A DNA stretch of 32,037 bases from an uncultured Oscillospiraceae bacterium (GTDB lineage: Bacteria; Bacillota; Clostridia; Oscillospirales; Oscillospiraceae). Shown here in pieces: positions 24,910-31,432 of this stretch. The stretch spans positions 1 through 32,037 of the forward strand of contig CALXCQ010000034.1 of assembly GCA_944386835.1 (NCBI GenBank). The letters run 5' to 3'. Numbering within the stretch: the first letter of the stretch is position 1; every line of letters starts with the position of its first letter. The notes beneath the pieces are model-generated. The model did no database searches. It was given only the letters and a program-made list of their open reading frames with translations, and was not told where the DNA came from. Both the position numbers and the translations under genes were made by a program.

Positions 24910-25626
24910 CTACAATTCGTCTCCACCCTGCTGACGAATCATTCGATACCCCACCCCAATATGCGTCTGAATAAACTGCGGATGGGCGGTATCCACCTCA
25001 ATTTTTTTCCGTAAAGTGGCCATAAATACCCGCAAAGAAGGTGTGTCAGACGGAGAGGTGCTGCCCCAGATTTTGTTGAGCAGGTAGTTATGCGTCAGCA
25101 CCTTTCCCGTGTTTTTTGCCAGGAGACACAAAAGTCTATATTCAATAGGCGTCAGATGTATCTCCTTTCCAGCCCGATAGACACATCCGGCGGCATAGTC
25201 GATCTTCAGATCCCCGTTTTCATAGGTACTGGCCTCATCTTTGACCTTTTCACTGTCATAGCGTACCCGCCGCAACGCCACCCGCAGACGCGCCAAGAGT
25301 TCCTCTACGGAAAACGGCTTGGTCAGATAGTCGTCCGCACCTGCATCTAACGCCTCCACTTTATCGCTGTCTTCATTGCGGGCCGAAACGACAATAATAG
25401 GCAAATTGCTCCAGGAGCGTACCTTCTTGATAATCTCCACGCCATCCATGTCCGGCAATCCCAAATCCAAAAGCATCACATCTGGCCGGTAGGAAATGGC
25501 ATCCAGCACTGCTCCCGTGCCATTTACAACCCGGTGAAACTGGTAGTTTTGCGTCTCTAAGGTTGTGGTAATTAAATTGGCGACTGCATTGTCATCTTCC
25601 ACCACTAAAATCTGTGGCTTATTCAC
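24910..25626 (-). CDS. kdpE: KdpE-type response regulator
   Basis: A 238-residue OmpR-family regulator. The receiver domain (residues 4-118) has the acidic pocket Glu10-Asp11, phospho-acceptor Asp54 in MLLDLGLPDMDG and Lys103 in YLTKPF. The winged helix (about 140-232) includes IHLTPIEYRLLCLLAKNTGKVLTHNYLLNKIWG and TLRKKIE...QFIQTHIGVGYRM. Sequence and pairing with KdpD identify it as KdpE, which normally activates the kdpFABC potassium pump. No kdpFABC lies in the window; the divergent neighbours are trkH-trkA, so these may be its target. The start overlaps the end of kdpD by 8 bases. No clear terminator is seen after it. Confidence 0.93.
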   Translation of the reverse strand: MNKPQILVVEDDNAVANLITTTLETQNYQFHRVVNGTGAVLDAISYRPDVMLLDLGLPDMDGVEIIKKVRSWSNLPIIVVSARNEDSDKVEALDAGADDYLTKPFSVEELLARLRVALRRVRYDSEKVKDEASTYENGDLKIDYAAGCVYRAGKEIHLTPIEYRLLCLLAKNTGKVLTHNYLLNKIWGSTSPSDTPSLRVFMATLRKKIEVDTAHPQFIQTHIGVGYRMIRQQGGDEL

Positions 25627-27208
25627 AGGATTTCACCTCCGGTGTTGGTAATGTAAAATAAAAACACGCGCCTTTTGGCACATTGTCCTTCACTCCGATG
25701 ATACCGCCATGGGCGCTGATAATCGCTTTACACAAAGACAGCCCCAGTCCAAGACCTCGCCTGCCGTCTCCCCGCTCATTGTTGGCCGTATAAAACATGG
25801 TAAACAAAGCGCCTTTATCAGCGTCTGAGACGCCCGGCCCGTCATCCGCAATGGTAACCAGAAGACGTCCGGGTTCCTGCCTGGCTGACAGCAAAATATG
25901 AGATCCAGGAGGGGTATAGGTAATGGCATTGTTCACAATATTAATGATCACCTGCACAATGAGCCTGGCATCCATCGGCGCCATGAGAAGCTCCTCTTCC
26001 AGCTGCACTTTTACCACATGCTCCGACGCTCTTCGGTCCAAATGGTCCAAAGCCTCCTGAAATACTTCCTCAATGAGCTCCGTTTCCAATTTGAGTCCCA
26101 TGGTTCCATTTTCAATTCTCGTCACAGATAACAGGTTTTCTACCAAATTGAACAGCCACATTGCATCATCATAAATGGTAGAATACAGCTGTTTTTTCTT
26201 TCCTTCGTCCAAAACCGCACTGTTCTCCATGAGAATTCCGGCATTTCCGGAAATACTGGTCAGCGGTGTGCGCAAATCATGCGAAATGGCTCGAAGCAAA
26301 TTGGCCCGCAATGCCTCTTGCTTTGCCTCCTGCTCAATTTTTTGCTTTGCCCGGCCCAATCGCTCTTTTTCCAGCGCCAGACCACATTCATCGATGATTG
26401 CAATCATCAAATTCTTTTCAAATGCATCTGGTTTTTCTTTTCCCGCCATAACAATACCGGCTACCGCCAGGACGCCACCGGCTCCCCGCACTGCTACATA
26501 CAAACAGTGGGCCGCTGGAAAAGTATTGGTGGTAGCGCCAGCGTGTTTATTGTTTTTCCACACCCACCTGGCTGCCTCCTGTTCCGACTCCGTCAAAAAT
26601 GGCGAAAGGTCTTCCCGTGCGGTGGGAAACTCCAAAGCGCTGCCCAATTGACCGGCATCGTCTACCGGGTAAAGTAAAACTGCCCGTTCCAGTAATTTAT
26701 TCAGCTGAGTCGCCATCACTGCCAAAATGGTGGATTCCTGCTCTGCCTTTTGGAGCTTCTGGCTGGTCTGCAACAGCACTTCCGTACGATAGGCCTTTTG
26801 GGCGCTTTCTACCGCCTGCCGCTTGACCCGGCTCGTCAAAGAGCTTCCCAGAACCGCAACCAAAAACATCACCAAAAAGGTAGCCACATATCCCGGTTCA
26901 CTGAATAACGTGAAATAGGGATACGTAAAAAAGAAATTGAAAATCAGCACCGAAAGACCAGAGGCCAGAAGGCTGTACCAACGGCTGCCTGTCAACATAG
27001 CCACTACCAAAACGCCCAGGATATAGATCATGATTACATTTGTAATGACAAAATTGAGGTCTGTTAACAGAAACCCAAACAGGGTGGAAATGGCAAGGAT
27101 CCCCAGTGTTTTCCCAAGATCTTCCAGGGACAGTGATTGCCTGGTACGATAGGTTTTTCCCTGCCCAACTTCCGGTTGCGTCTGGTCCGGAATGATGTAA
27201 ATATCCAA
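25619..27208 (-). CDS. kdpD: KdpD sensor kinase, C-terminal part after an in-frame stop
   Basis: This frame encodes the membrane and kinase half of KdpD. Four membrane segments lie at residues about 33-122, a GAF-like domain at about 145-270, and the kinase core with His in RAISHDLRTPLTSISGN (about residue 308), N-box IINIVNNAITYTPPG, and G boxes ADDGPGVS and GLGLGLSLCKAIISAHGG. The only difference from a normal KdpD is a TAA codon at 27245-27247, twelve codons before the possible TTG start at 27208, with the same frame continuing on both sides: the residues between read TVTDKLSALLPDL and belong to KdpD. No ribosome site precedes the TTG. The part is either made by reinitiation or readthrough, or the gene is freshly inactivated, or the base is a sequencing error. 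Confidence 0.8.
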   Translation of the reverse strand: MDIYIIPDQTQPEVGQGKTYRTRQSLSLEDLGKTLGILAISTLFGFLLTDLNFVITNVIMIYILGVLVVAMLTGSRWYSLLASGLSVLIFNFFFTYPYFTLFSEPGYVATFLVMFLVAVLGSSLTSRVKRQAVESAQKAYRTEVLLQTSQKLQKAEQESTILAVMATQLNKLLERAVLLYPVDDAGQLGSALEFPTAREDLSPFLTESEQEAARWVWKNNKHAGATTNTFPAAHCLYVAVRGAGGVLAVAGIVMAGKEKPDAFEKNLMIAIIDECGLALEKERLGRAKQKIEQEAKQEALRANLLRAISHDLRTPLTSISGNAGILMENSAVLDEGKKKQLYSTIYDDAMWLFNLVENLLSVTRIENGTMGLKLETELIEEVFQEALDHLDRRASEHVVKVQLEEELLMAPMDARLIVQVIINIVNNAITYTPPGSHILLSARQEPGRLLVTIADDGPGVSDADKGALFTMFYTANNERGDGRRGLGLGLSLCKAIISAHGGIIGVKDNVPKGACFYFTLPTPEVKSCE

Positions 27209-27244
27209 ATCTGGTAATAGTGCGCTTAGCTTATCTGTAACGGT

Positions 27245-28354
27245 TTATCTCTGGGCAAAAATTCCTTTTCTCCTGGGACTTCTTCCCAGCACGATTTTGG
27301 AAACACCGCCGGCTCTGGCATATTCCGCAATCTGGACCGCCGGTTCGTCTCCATATAAGGTAGTAATCCGGGCTCCCAGCTCTTCTGCCAGACGTAAATT
27401 CTCCCGCAATTGCTGTTTTTCCAGCTCCGGCTTTTCTCTTGTCCCCGAAGACTCTACATAAAGGGCTGTGAATTCCCCATGAAATGCTTCTGCCATTTTC
27501 GCCGCTGTCCGGATAACTTTACTATTGGTCGGCGCGCTGGACAAGCAGGCCAGAATATGGTCCGATACGCCAGCACTTTTCCTTGGGTGTCCCGTTTCCC
27601 AGCGGTTCAGGCGTTCTGCACATCTCCGCAGAGCGATTTCCCGCAAAGCCATCAATTTTCTCTTTTGCTGTTCCCGCTGTGCTGCCTCTTGCTCCAGATT
27701 CCAAAACGAGAACTGCTCCCGTCTGGCCAAAAGTGCTTCTGGTTCCATGTCAATCATTTCCACACCGTCTGCCTCTTCAAACAGAGCGTCGGGTATTTTG
27801 GCCTGTACTCTTGTACCGGTAATATGGGAAATGATATCCCACAGGCCCTCTAAATTTTCCACATTGAGTGTGGTGTAGACACAGATGCCTGACCGCAAAA
27901 GCTCCTGAATATCCTGATACCGCCAGACGTGCCTGCCACCGGGCGGATTTTGTAAAGCCAGCTGATCCATAACCAGGACTTGTGGTTTCCGGGCAATTGC
28001 CAGGTCCAATGGGAATCCTGTCTGTTGCCGCTGCTCCATCACCGGCACTGCGATTCCCGATTTCGGCGACAACAGTTCCAGCCCTTCCAGTAAAGCTTCG
28101 GTTTCCGGCGGCAATTCCGGAGCCATTGCACCAATCACCACATCTGTCCCGGTCTGCGCCAGACTCCTTGCTCTTTCCAGCATGGCGTAGGTTTTACCTA
28201 CCCCGCCGGCATAGCCAAAAAAGATTGTTAGTTTTCCGCGCCTGAAAAAGCTTTGTCCCACGGGATCGCCGTTTTTTTCCGGTAACTGTTTCTCCACCGG
28301 TGCCACCTTCTTCCTGCTATGTTTACCATACCACACAGCCTGTGAGGACTGCAT
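27245..28354 (-). CDS. kdpD: KdpD sensor kinase, N-terminal part ending at a premature stop
   Basis: A 369-residue fragment carrying the cytoplasmic N-terminal KdpD domain (RRGKLTIFFGYAGGVGKTYAMLERARSLA, a Walker A motif; VYTTLNVENLEGL; and a long helical region). It ends with the universal-stress-protein-like domain (VSDHILACLSSAPTNSKVIRTAAKMAEAFHGEFTALYVES...GGVSKIVLGRSPRRKGIFAQR). In intact KdpD the chain continues at once into the segment found after the stop; joined, the two parts give about 910 residues, close to E. coli KdpD (894). The frame opens at 28453, but upstream lies the promoter region with repeated motifs, so 28354 is used; a GTG at 28306 preceded by AGGA is an alternative. 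In some bacteria a stand-alone KdpD N-terminus exists, so the fragment could be functional. Confidence 0.78.
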   Translation of the reverse strand: MQSSQAVWYGKHSRKKVAPVEKQLPEKNGDPVGQSFFRRGKLTIFFGYAGGVGKTYAMLERARSLAQTGTDVVIGAMAPELPPETEALLEGLELLSPKSGIAVPVMEQRQQTGFPLDLAIARKPQVLVMDQLALQNPPGGRHVWRYQDIQELLRSGICVYTTLNVENLEGLWDIISHITGTRVQAKIPDALFEEADGVEMIDMEPEALLARREQFSFWNLEQEAAQREQQKRKLMALREIALRRCAERLNRWETGHPRKSAGVSDHILACLSSAPTNSKVIRTAAKMAEAFHGEFTALYVESSGTREKPELEKQQLRENLRLAEELGARITTLYGDEPAVQIAEYARAGGVSKIVLGRSPRRKGIFAQR

Positions 28355-28373
28355 TGCCCTTTTGTCTGAGAGC

Positions 28374-28466
28374 TTAAGATTCCATAAAGATTCCCGCTTA
28401 ATACAATCTTTATGCCCCAGCCGGAATCTTAACTGAACGCTCACCCATTGCATGGTACAATCTTAC
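28374..28466. promoter_or_regulatory. Repeated AAGATT motif between kdpD and trkH, with the trkH promoter
   Basis: Five copies of a (T/A)AAGATT(C/G) motif are present: TTAAGATTCC (28374-28383) and TAAAGATTCC (28385-28394) as a direct repeat with an 11-base period. Inverted copies lie at 28404-28412, 28423-28432 and 28458-28466. An extended -10 for trkH, TG-G-TACAAT, lies at 28453-28461, and the copy at 28423-28432 abuts its weak -35 region (CTGAAC, 28433-28438). Tandem sites one helical turn apart are typical for OmpR-family regulators, so KdpE is the obvious candidate to bind. Confidence 0.55.
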
Positions 28467-28517
28467 CACATATCCTCTGGACTTCCTACATTAACTTTAA
28501 AAGTGAGATAGATTGCC

Positions 28518-29864
28518 TTGTTGTGGAAAAAAACCAGCCGGATCACTCCGGCACAAATTATTATTTTGGGATTTCTTTTTCTGATTTTGGCTGGCGCTCT
28601 GCTTCTAACGCTTCCCTTTGCTTCCCGGCAGCCTGGCAGTGCTTCATTTTGGGACGCACTGTTTACGGCAACTTCCGCCACCTGTGTGACGGGTCTGGTC
28701 ATCTATGACACCGCCACTTTCTGGTCTCCTTTTGGTCAGTTTGTCATTATGATCCTCATTCAGATTGGAGGCATGGGCGTTGTCACCATGGCCATTGCCA
28801 TTACCATGTTCGCTGGCAAACGGATCGGTCTGAAACAACGTTGGGTCATGCAGGAGTCTATCTCCGCTCCCCAGGTAGGCGGAATCGTCCGGATGACCGG
28901 TTTCATTTTAAAGGCTGGGTTTATCCTGGAAGCTACCGGCGCCCTGTTGCTGGCCGTGCGGTTTATCCCCCAGCTGGGCATCCTGAAGGGCCTGTGGTAT
29001 GCGGTTTTTCACTCGGTGTCCGCCTTTTGCAATGCCGGCTTTGATCTGATGGGCTACAAAGCACCGTTCTCTTCTTTAACTGCATCTGTTGGCGATCCCA
29101 TTATCAATTTTACCGTGATGGGTCTGATTGTTCTGGGTGGCATCGGTTTTCTCACCTGGCATGACTTTTACGAACACAAGTGGCATTTTCGCCGGTTCCG
29201 CATGCAAAGCAAACTGATCCTGGTAACCACTTTTCTTTTAATCTTATTGCCAGCGCTCTTTTTCTTCCTCTATGAATTCCACTTGCCACAGTGGGAAGGA
29301 CTTACCCTTGGACAGCGTATTCAGGCCGCTTTGTTCCAATCCATAACGCCCCGTACTGCCGGCTTTAATACAGTGGACCTGACACTGCTCAGCCAGTCCA
29401 GCACCCTGGTTATCATTTTGCTCATGCTGATCGGCGGCTCTCCTGGTTCTACCGCCGGCGGATTTAAAACCACTACCCTGGCAGTTCTTCTGCTGACCAT
29501 TCGTGCTGTTTTCCATCGCCGGGAATGTGCCCAATGCTTTGGACGCCGGATTCCCGCCGATGTTTTGCGGAGTGCCGTTACCATTTTTTTGTTGTACTGT
29601 ATCTTATTCCTTGCAGGTGGTATCTTCCTGTGTTGCTTCGATGGTCTTTCCATGATGGAAGCTCTGTTTGAGACCGCCTCTGCAATCGGCACAGTAGGGT
29701 TGTCTTTGGGCGTAACCCCAACTTTGAGTTTTGCTTCCCGTCTGGTGATCATCTTTCTCATGTATTTTGGCCGCGTTGGCGGTCTGACGCTTCTTTACGC
29801 CGTCGCTTCCGGCTCTGCCTGTGTTCCGGCACAGCTGCCACAAGAGCGACTTACCGTAGGATAA
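28518..29864 (+). CDS. trkH: Trk/Ktr-type potassium uptake channel subunit
   Basis: A 448-residue membrane protein of the TrkH/KtrB family. It has the four pore loops of the superfamily: ATSATCVTGLVIYD (residues about 50-63), HSVSAFCNAGFDL (about 165-177), QSITPRTAGFNT (about 275-286) and ETASAIGTVGLSL (about 381-393), each with the filter Gly. The length suits KtrB-like members. Start: an in-frame TAG at 28509-28511 forces initiation downstream, and the first candidate is TTG at 28518, with a poor ribosome site. The final segment FLMYFGRVGGLTLLYAVASG is complete. It forms a unit with trkA, 18 bases downstream, and is divergent from kdpD. No c-di-AMP riboswitch is seen. Confidence 0.93.
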   Translation: MLWKKTSRITPAQIIILGFLFLILAGALLLTLPFASRQPGSASFWDALFTATSATCVTGLVIYDTATFWSPFGQFVIMILIQIGGMGVVTMAIAITMFAGKRIGLKQRWVMQESISAPQVGGIVRMTGFILKAGFILEATGALLLAVRFIPQLGILKGLWYAVFHSVSAFCNAGFDLMGYKAPFSSLTASVGDPIINFTVMGLIVLGGIGFLTWHDFYEHKWHFRRFRMQSKLILVTTFLLILLPALFFFLYEFHLPQWEGLTLGQRIQAALFQSITPRTAGFNTVDLTLLSQSSTLVIILLMLIGGSPGSTAGGFKTTTLAVLLLTIRAVFHRRECAQCFGRRIPADVLRSAVTIFLLYCILFLAGGIFLCCFDGLSMMEALFETASAIGTVGLSLGVTPTLSFASRLVIIFLMYFGRVGGLTLLYAVASGSACVPAQLPQERLTVG

Positions 29865-29882
29865 AAAAGGAAGGATCCAAAT

Positions 29883-30530
29883 ATGAAATCTATTCTTCTC
29901 ATTGGCTTAGGCCGTTTTGGCCGCCATATGGCCATGGAGCTGCAAAATCTGCGCCATGAAGTCTGGGCTGTGGATAAAGATGAGCAGCGGGTAAACGATG
30001 CTCTGGAGCTGGTCACCAACGCGCAGATTGGCGACAGTACCAATGAGGCCTTTATCGCCTCACTGGGCGTTCGGAATTTTGACCTGTGCGTCGTTGCCAT
30101 CGGCGACGATTTTCAAAGTTCTCTGGAAACAACTGCCCTGCTAAAAGAACATGGCGCACAATTTGTCCTGGCCCGTGCTGCCAGAGAAGTTCATGCAAAG
30201 TTCCTGCTACGCAACGGTGCCGATGATGTCATCTATCCGGAAAAACAAATGGCATCCTGGGCTGCTATGCGCTATAGCTCGGAGCACATTTTCGATTATA
30301 TTAAACTGACTCCGGATCACGCCATATATGAAACGGATGTGCCTCTATCCTGGGTGGGACGAACCATTGTACAAATCGGTGTCCGTCAAAAATACCACTT
30401 CAGTATTTTAGCCACCAAACGAGGCGAAATTCTCAATCCCCTTCCGGGGGCAGAACATCGCTTTCAGACTGGAGAAACCATGTTAATCCTGGGAAGCAAC
30501 CGGGATGTGCAAAAGTTTCTTCAGCTGTAA
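29883..30530 (+). CDS. trkA: TrkA/KtrA potassium-channel regulatory subunit
   Basis: A 215-residue cytoplasmic protein. An RCK N-terminal Rossmann domain (MKSILLIGLGRFGRHMAMELQNLRHEVWAVDKDEQRV) has the G-x-G-x-x-G nucleotide loop at residues 8-13 and the acidic residue Asp31. An RCK-C domain follows (about 140-215), ending ETMLILGSNRDVQKFLQL. It forms an octameric ring that gates TrkH/KtrB in response to ATP/ADP or NAD(H), and in Gram-positives RCK-C often binds c-di-AMP. It has a single RCK pair as in KtrA, not the double form of E. coli TrkA. GGAAGGATCC provides the ribosome site. It is the last gene before a strong terminator. Confidence 0.94.
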   Translation: MKSILLIGLGRFGRHMAMELQNLRHEVWAVDKDEQRVNDALELVTNAQIGDSTNEAFIASLGVRNFDLCVVAIGDDFQSSLETTALLKEHGAQFVLARAAREVHAKFLLRNGADDVIYPEKQMASWAAMRYSSEHIFDYIKLTPDHAIYETDVPLSWVGRTIVQIGVRQKYHFSILATKRGEILNPLPGAEHRFQTGETMLILGSNRDVQKFLQL

Positions 30531-30543
30531 ACTCCTATCAAAT

Positions 30544-30585
30544 ACCAAGGGAGCCTTCCGCTGCCGAACGGAAGGCTCCCTTGGT
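30544..30585 (+). terminator. Terminator of the trkH-trkA operon
   Basis: A perfect 17-bp inverted repeat (30544-30560 and 30569-30585) with an 8-base loop begins 14 bases after trkA. The T-run is absent on the plus strand (GTCAAAAAG follows), so strength rests on the stem. Read on the minus strand it could also terminate the small DUF2292-like transcript. Confidence 0.75.
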
Positions 30586-30731: not shown

Positions 30732-30899
30732 CTACTTTTGCTGTGGTAAATCAAAGACAACGCTCTGCCGGACACTTTCCGCGCGAATGGGCATACTATC
30801 CCGAATCACCAATTCCAATCGGCCGTATCCCAATTCCCGAATGAACTGTAAGAGACGACGTTCGTTTTCCGTAATGGGAAACGGTTCTTTTTTTTGCAT
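30732..30899 (-). CDS. Small DUF2292 (YezD-like) protein
   Basis: A 55-residue protein, too short for most gene finders' cut-offs. The reading MQKKEPFPITENERRLL, then FIRELGYGRLELVIRDSMPIRAESVRQSVVFDL, fits the DUF2292/YezD pattern: a short helix, then LxYGxxxLVIxDxxPVxxE...SVxF as paired strands. YezD proteins are often found near sulfur-assimilation genes; their role is unknown. A strong GGGAGGA site lies 8 bases upstream of the ATG. The gene stands alone behind a consensus promoter, a cobalamin-type riboswitch and a terminator, so its expression is probably switched off by corrinoid. No signal peptide, membrane segment or Cys is present. The reading was made directly from the bases at 30899-30732. 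Confidence 0.7.
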   Translation of the reverse strand: MQKKEPFPITENERRLLQFIRELGYGRLELVIRDSMPIRAESVRQSVVFDLPQQK

Positions 30900-30934
30900 C
30901 GTCTTTCCTCCCTATCAGCAAGTTTATCGTTCAT

Positions 30935-30966
30935 AAAAAATTGCCTATCGGCTTTCCGATAGGCAA
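30935..30966 (-). terminator. Intrinsic terminator of the riboswitch
   Basis: On the minus strand TTGCCTATCGG (30966-30956), a 4-base loop, and CCGATAGGCAA (30951-30941) make an 11-bp stem followed by six T. It lies between the riboswitch core and the small gene's ribosome site. Upstream, CGTATCGGCC (near 31005-30996) repeats the TATCGG of the first arm and could pair with the second arm as an antiterminator. Confidence 0.85.
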
Positions 30967-30969
30967 AGA

Positions 30970-31129
30970 AATTCTTCCAAACCACGAATCGAGTACAGGC
31001 CGATACGAGCAGCTGCTTTGCGTATCTGACTTATCCGTAACCACGGCTTCACAGTGACCGACTCGCGAGGCTTTTCACCTCATTCCGCATTTGCACAGGC
31101 AAAAAAAGCAACCAAATATGTACTTGTTT
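30970..31129 (-). ncRNA. Cobalamin-type riboswitch
   Basis: Reading on the minus strand, the leader contains the ordered conserved pieces of cobalamin riboswitches: GGAA followed by GGTGAAAAGCC (31079-31069), CACTGTGA (31056-31049) and the B12-box-like AAGTCAGATACGC (31032-31020). A GATACG...CGTATC hairpin and the terminator at 30935-30966 follow. The short arms suggest an AdoCbl-class or variant form. The B12 box lacks one G compared with the usual AGTCAGGA, so ligand class is uncertain. It would terminate transcription of the DUF2292-like gene when bound. Confidence 0.75.
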
Positions 31130-31135
31130 ACTAAA

Positions 31136-31164
31136 ATTATATCACTCTGCCATAACAATGTCAA
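31136..31164 (-). promoter_or_regulatory. Consensus sigma-A promoter of the riboswitch transcript
   Basis: On the minus strand TTGACA (31164-31159), a 17-base spacer and TATAAT (31141-31136) match the consensus in all twelve positions. Transcription should begin near 31129, just before the riboswitch. Confidence 0.9.
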
Positions 31165-31255: not shown

Positions 31256-31432
31256 TTAGAATGTTTTCTTACAGAAAGACTGACAGTCGGTGCACTGATC
31301 CATCTTGGGGTTGGCTTCGTGGGTACCTACTTGAATTTTGTCCAACGAGCAGTAGTTTTCACCGTTGCAGTGATGGGTACAAGAGGTTACGACGCATGCA
31401 ATGCTCTTATTGGCTTTGTCACAAGTGTTCAT
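31256..31432 (-). CDS. DUF1540 cysteine-rich protein
   Basis: A 58-residue protein starting MNTCDKANKSIACVVTSC, followed by HHCNGENYCSLDKIQVGTHEANP and QCTDCQSFCKK. The cysteine spacing and the GENYCSLDKIxVGTHEA...CTDCxSF stretch are the DUF1540 signature, a small presumed metal-binding domain common in Clostridia. It has eight cysteines and three histidines. AGGAGG lies 8 bases upstream of the ATG. A TATAAT-like box lies upstream at 31495-31490, without a good -35. Its biological role is unknown; expression with sporulation has been suggested for some family members, which this sequence does not show. Reading made directly from the bases. Confidence 0.88.
   Translation of the reverse strand: MNTCDKANKSIACVVTSCTHHCNGENYCSLDKIQVGTHEANPKMDQCTDCQSFCKKTF

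Follow-up and report, generated by a model that had tools for sequence, protein, structure and literature searches.

Why would a corrinoid-sensing RNA stand in front of nothing but a gene for a 55-aa protein of the DUF2292 type? This question is raised by a short transcription unit on the minus strand (31164-30732) of the window, i.e., of the entire 32-kb stretch of DNA analysed here. An earlier note on this locus had described a promoter, a cobalamin-type riboswitch and a terminator in front of a single DUF2292-like gene, and had suspected a corrinoid-linked role for the protein, perhaps tied to sulfur metabolism. Our analysis bears out the layout and leads us to a different view of what the protein may do.

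A short-variant corrinoid riboswitch precedes a lone DUF2292 gene

On the minus strand, a promoter is followed in order by a leader with a corrinoid riboswitch, an intrinsic terminator, a Shine-Dalgarno sequence and the DUF2292 ORF. The promoter consists of a TTGACA -35 box (31159-31164) and a TATAAT -10 box (31136-31141) separated by a 17-nt spacer, while the computed fold of the terminator, TTGCCTATCGG-AAAG-CCGATAGGCAATTTTTT (30935-30966), forms the expression platform. The Shine-Dalgarno sequence AGGGAGG (30907-30913) leads into an ORF of 55 codons (30732-30899). This gene is a lone unit because trkA converges on it from the other side and both have a bidirectional terminator (30544-30585) in common. 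Genes for a KdpD-like sensor, a TrkH-type potassium transporter and a TrkA-type regulator adjoin the unit (window positions 25619-30530), and a small cysteine-rich DUF1540 protein (PF07561, E 3.6e-13) is encoded just upstream on the same strand (31256-31432).

Rfam at its gathering thresholds finds no riboswitch anywhere in the window, which is misleading here. At a lowered threshold, RF00174 matches positions 31122-31000 with 18.1 bits (E 0.022), short of its gathering score of 31.5 bits, and our covariance model R3 of 12 short relatives matches the window with 98.6 bits and has no other match in the 32 kb. Because R3 was built with the window excluded and matches it at E 3.1e-27, we take the element—an aptamer with P13 at 30981-31114 on the minus strand—to be a real member of a short-variant corrinoid (cobalamin) riboswitch subtype. 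The expectation that a riboswitch model would recognise this leader thus fails for Rfam and holds for the family-specific model, and the lack of a significant Rfam match, which taken alone would speak against a riboswitch, is overturned by R3. A DNA search of 60 relatives finds the core sequence in 12 genomes; most copies are not called by Rfam, and the subtype adds corrinoid riboswitches that escape Rfam cut-offs. Judging from the ORFs behind them, some members precede B12 genes, with ECF-S and DUF4430-like proteins at two loci (L026 and L032) and a CbiK-like chelatase at another (L038). At one locus, two short corrinoid riboswitches lie about 450 nt apart (L023, at 1079 and 1531; G029:C30) with a single secreted-protein gene behind them.

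P1, P2, P3, P4 and P6 as well as the L5 and J6/3 sequences can all be placed by complementarity and by alignment with relatives. The 5' strand of P1, GTTGCTTT (31105-31112), is the complement of AAAGCAGC at 31019-31012; P2 reads TTTGC-CTGT-GCAAA, P3 ATGCG/CGCA, P6 CCGT-GGTT-ACGG and P13 CGTATCG/CGATTCG. L5 and core, GCGAGTCGGTCACTGTGA (31049-31066), are almost identical among relatives, J6/3 is ATAAGTCAGATACGC (31020-31034), and almost every invariant column of the relatives is retained, with the P3-P6 architecture and the conserved core present. P4 is GAGG/CCTC in the window compared to GGGG/CCCC in relatives, i.e., a compensated double change. The cobalamin riboswitches of RF00174/RF01482 have this core in common with the window (GGTGAAAAGCC-type P4, CACTGTGA and AAGTCAG-type J6/3) and show the same helix order with P13 and then a terminator. 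The window differs from them as a short-P2 subtype below the gathering score, by an L13 that is poorly complementary to L5 and by having a regulator-like small protein as its target. L13 is ACCG in relatives, complementary to CGGU of L5, whereas it is ACUCG in the window, where the L5-L13 contact would be either weak or shifted to CGAGU:ACUCG.

TATCGGC, in the 5' part of the P13 hairpin (30985-31007), is complementary to the terminator's GCCGATA, and we propose this duplex as a plausible antiterminator (-10.3 kcal/mol compared to -17.8 kcal/mol for the terminator stem). With its ligand and direction both predicted, the element is most likely an OFF switch: a bound corrinoid would let P13 form and preclude the TATCGGC:GCCGATA antiterminator, so that the terminator would halt transcription, and the DUF2292 protein would be produced when corrinoid is absent.

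Riboswitch control of DUF2292 proteins is recurrent

DUF2292 (PF10055) is the sole Pfam family found for the window protein, with 18.8 bits at a gathering cut-off of 22, and an HMM of 19 homologues from which this protein was left out matches it with 47.9 bits (E 3.5e-14). Used as query, the window protein finds homologues at E 1e-9; a search of genome contigs with it returns no relative, and the same search with the protein of G003 returns 12. NCBIfam has no family and the PDB no relative for the window protein, and its AlphaFold model is too poor (pLDDT 64, pTM 0.33) to reveal an RNA-binding fold. The 55 residues contain the I-R-x-L-x-Y/F-G core of the DUF2292/YezD/OscA family, but the C-terminus is of a P-V/I-R-A-E-x-x-x-K-S type instead of VQIEKNEKVRL, and the predicted input is a corrinoid rather than SAM. 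One other locus (L016; G028:C3) encodes two DUF2292 domains in tandem in a single ORF, with no hairpin of the kind described below seen nearby.

Close DUF2292 homologues from about 15 genera have a cobalamin riboswitch in front of them. Within the same taxonomic order, RF00174/RF01482 matches stand directly upstream and above the cut-off in G006 (RF01482, 57.8 bits), G080 (47.6 bits) and G218 (52.0 bits), and just below the cut-off in G326 (30.4 bits); in G011 the R3 model matches upstream of DUF2292 (24.7 bits, E 1e-5), and a locus from a more distant genus (L075) reaches 128 bits. All 8 class-level loci examined (L076-L082 and L086), likewise from more distant genera, have a riboswitch above the gathering score. 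Because cobalamin riboswitches precede DUF2292 in many genera, control by a B12 riboswitch is by this evidence a recurrent arrangement and not peculiar to the window. The earlier note, which had called for such a survey, was therefore right to place a DUF2292-like protein under a corrinoid-type riboswitch and to see a corrinoid-linked role in it.

Other members of the family have different inputs. Ten homologues (L064-L073) have no cobalamin riboswitch, and a metal-sensitive repressor gene of the RcnR/CsoR type (PF02583) lies divergently beside DUF2292 at one of these loci (L068). One homologue of the sulfur type (L090) comes with a SAM riboswitch, and the YezD leader on a Cytobacillus spongiae plasmid (L223; NZ_CP089998.1) reads as an S-box. 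The ten homologues also have in common an ATCCCCC(C)nnGGGG-CTTG motif over a -35-like element about 60-90 nt upstream of DUF2292. The suspected tie to sulfur holds for the family overall, with its SAM riboswitches, cysH, nitrogenase-like and sulfonate-type genes, but not for the corrinoid subfamily, whose neighbours are DUF4430 surface proteins, ECF/ABC transporters and a CobN chelatase instead of sulfur genes.

A conserved hairpin within a terminator accompanies DUF2292

Most DUF2292 loci have a hairpin of the form YGAC-N-GAA-N-AAC-N-G(c)AGG or TGACYNGAHAACNRGAGG 3' of the gene, and the 3' strand of this hairpin doubles as the 5' arm of an intrinsic terminator. It is about 25 nt long with few conserved unpaired bases and comes in two forms, YGA-CNG-AANAA-CNG-CA-GG and YGA-CNNG-AHAA-CNNG-A-GG. 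All 12 named loci have hairpin and terminator 12-33 nt past the DUF2292 stop codon, and a strict descriptor matches within 1.6 kb downstream in 35 of 45 DUF2292 loci (binomial P 2e-64); elsewhere it matches 4 times in 793 kb of strand, always at trans or 5' copies. The hairpin is visible by eye at L057, L097, L136, L166 and L217, where the strict rule for terminator or pairing is not satisfied. Among 34 aligned copies, covariation amounts to 54 double-change cells compared to 19.8 +/- 5.7 after shuffling, with lower values for slid controls. Across 42 sites, the mean energy is -7.7 for the hairpin and -21.8 for the terminator, and the latter is the predicted default in 40 of them; the hairpin would therefore need help to form. 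Matches of the R1 model that lack a terminator, such as the top-scoring one in G529, were rejected as chance occurrences in coding sequence.

DUF2292 is encoded in 10 of 148 class genomes sampled, and 8 of these 10 (G445, G448, G449, G454, G476, G533, G534 and G543) have hairpin and terminator within 5 kb, the window genome and G479 being the two without. The paired pattern is present in 5 of 10 genomes with DUF2292 and in 2 of 138 without it (P 9e-6), where the genome statistics partly reuse loci from which the motif was drawn (G454, G476, G543 and G445, but not G448, G449, G533 and G534). Model R2 at E<1e-3 finds 17 of 25 DUF2292 genomes and none of 14 others, with overlap between this sample and its training set. 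No hairpin was found at the DUF2292 genes of Priestia plasmids.

The same pair is found in phages. Nine viral contigs carry a phage DUF2292, and in seven of them the hairpin/terminator follows 218-1220 nt downstream; one more (L217) has a hairpin whose terminator is weaker. Two prophage regions have genes for terminase and portal proteins behind the hairpin/terminator. Conversely, a search of 2.9 million viral contigs for the exact 21-mer yields 9, of which 7 encode DUF2292; L232 has this 21-mer and no clear DUF2292, and contig L229 has only about 450 nt of sequence before the hairpin. It is possible that the phage pair serves as a compact switch for late-gene antitermination. A phage DUF2292 gene and then a hairpin/terminator can be seen in L130, L132, L214-L221 and L231.

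DUF2292 as a candidate hairpin-dependent antiterminator

Inputs upstream of DUF2292 differ (cobalamin riboswitch, SAM riboswitch or metal-repressor-like operator) and the hairpin is constant. Because this hairpin-in-terminator is the constant partner while the upstream sensor varies, we read DUF2292 as a readthrough factor that would stabilise it. The protein would bind the small conserved RNA hairpin overlapping the 5' arm of the terminator, and the stabilised hairpin would let RNA polymerase read through into uptake or salvage operons. In this way, a shortage of corrinoid would be signalled to genes for cobalamin/cobalt uptake and, in sister systems, a shortage of SAM to sulfur genes; phages would place the pair ahead of their late genes. 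Sequence comparison documents the riboswitch, its recurrence before DUF2292 and the association of DUF2292 with the hairpin/terminator in cis and in trans. For the window, we think it fairly probable that the OFF riboswitch and DUF2292 as a hairpin-dependent antiterminator together relay corrinoid scarcity, with RNA binding and antitermination as predicted steps. We also lean towards regarding DUF2292 (YezD/OscA) as a new family of RNA-hairpin-dependent antiterminators that would serve corrinoid, SAM and metal relays as well as phage late genes through a hairpin that is absent from Rfam.

The main rival explanation holds that the hairpin is itself a tiny riboswitch for a metabolite or ion, or the site of some other protein, and that DUF2292 is merely co-regulated and metabolic. 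Such an element might well lie upstream of DUF2292 itself, as the hairpin does in G757, or occur where DUF2292 is undetected, as the hairpin/terminators of G508 and G426 do. However, its small size and few conserved unpaired bases argue against a ligand-binding RNA, and so does its position behind genes that are already under riboswitches for differing ligands. Weakened further by the occurrence in phages, where hairpin and DUF2292 precede late genes, and by the strong coupling of hairpin and DUF2292, this explanation seems unlikely to us. We give still less credence to the proposal of the earlier note that DUF2292 serves sulfur metabolism as an accessory microprotein with a link to corrinoids and acts on an enzyme or transporter. 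DUF2292 relatives do adjoin sulfur genes and one of them resembles the OscA model, but in sulfur, corrinoid and phage contexts alike the constant partner is an RNA hairpin/terminator and not an enzyme family. This conserved partner, which had been missed, points to RNA-based regulation instead of a metabolic role.

For the window itself, the downstream arm of the proposed antitermination relay is drawn from homology because neither the window nor its genome has a recognisable hairpin: there is none in the window and none in the genome at E<=0.5, and the hairpin pattern has 5 chance matches in the genome, none combining pairing with a terminator. The target may have diverged or may fall into a gap of the assembly, which consists of 168 contigs; otherwise the unit is a remnant. 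A decaying unit that has lost its target hairpin operon would be compatible with the antiterminator reading for the family, and it would fit not only the absent hairpin but also the Pfam score below the cut-off (18.8 vs 22 bits), the diverged C-terminus and the weakened L5-L13 contact. We nevertheless hold decay to be doubtful, though a possibility to be reckoned with: ORF, Shine-Dalgarno sequence, consensus promoter and terminator are intact, the change in P4 is compensated, cobalamin riboswitch genes are still in the genome, and a target could be too diverged or fall between contigs.

Antiterminator proteins of the BglG/LicT and ANTAR (EutV) types act by stabilising a hairpin which shares sequence with a terminator's 5' arm, and the EutV system is likewise tied to a B12 riboswitch. 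No sequence relation of DUF2292 to these families or to NusG/LoaP was found, with DUF2292 as the only Pfam result and no relative in the PDB, and its hairpin is unlike RAT sites and the paired ANTAR hairpins. In Bacillus subtilis, anti-TRAP (rtpA/yczA) is a small regulator of an attenuation system under a T box leader that senses the same pathway, resembling DUF2292 as a small regulator made under the control of an RNA leader (PMC11255114). It differs by binding the TRAP protein, by its unrelated sequence and by its sensor. The processive antitermination systems LoaP (PMC12691694), conAn of pLS20 (PMC8955417) and phage N/Q/put also combine a small factor with an RNA element that is located towards the beginning of long operons or precedes the late genes of phages. 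They differ in that the element linked to DUF2292 sits inside the terminator and DUF2292 is no NusG paralogue. This location within the terminator itself suggests terminator-specific action. conAn was set aside as a parallel because its anatomy differs. In open-licence papers on YezD/DUF2292/OscA, we found no proposal of an RNA or antitermination role.

If true, the reading of DUF2292 as a hairpin-dependent antiterminator would provide a widespread family, so far only named DUF2292, YezD or OscA, with a function and would explain the tiny genes behind cobalamin and SAM riboswitches. It would constitute a two-step relay from one metabolite-sensing RNA to many operons via a protein of about 50 residues, and in phages it would amount to a compact switch for late genes.

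Genes behind the hairpins

DUF4430 domains are confirmed behind hairpins at five loci (L133, L128, L210, L134 and L139), and a CobN-type chelatase lies downstream at L064. On the Cytobacillus spongiae plasmid (L223), an S-box-like leader is followed by YezD, the hairpin/terminator and cysH/sat/cysC for sulfate assimilation, an arrangement that may explain how sulfate-assimilation operons are attenuated. Under the antiterminator reading, one could test directly how sulfur-assimilation operons behind yezD, and surface proteins for corrinoid capture, are regulated.

Copies in trans are found in several genomes. G448 and G758 each have a second hairpin 10-12 kb away, which in G758 precedes a family 3 ABC solute-binding protein, and G693, G642 and G772 have copies elsewhere ahead of secreted proteins. 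In G745, the one DUF2292 gene found stands behind a SAM riboswitch, and R2 has about 25 matches dispersed over the genome, many with overlapping terminators. These copies precede nitrogenase-like, NifH-like, O-acetylhomoserine-sulfhydrylase-like, radical-SAM and transporter genes, and some are arranged in tandem arrays. At L202 (G745:C13 1436-1814 and 2933-3009), hairpins of this type stand close together in tandem arrays of two or three.
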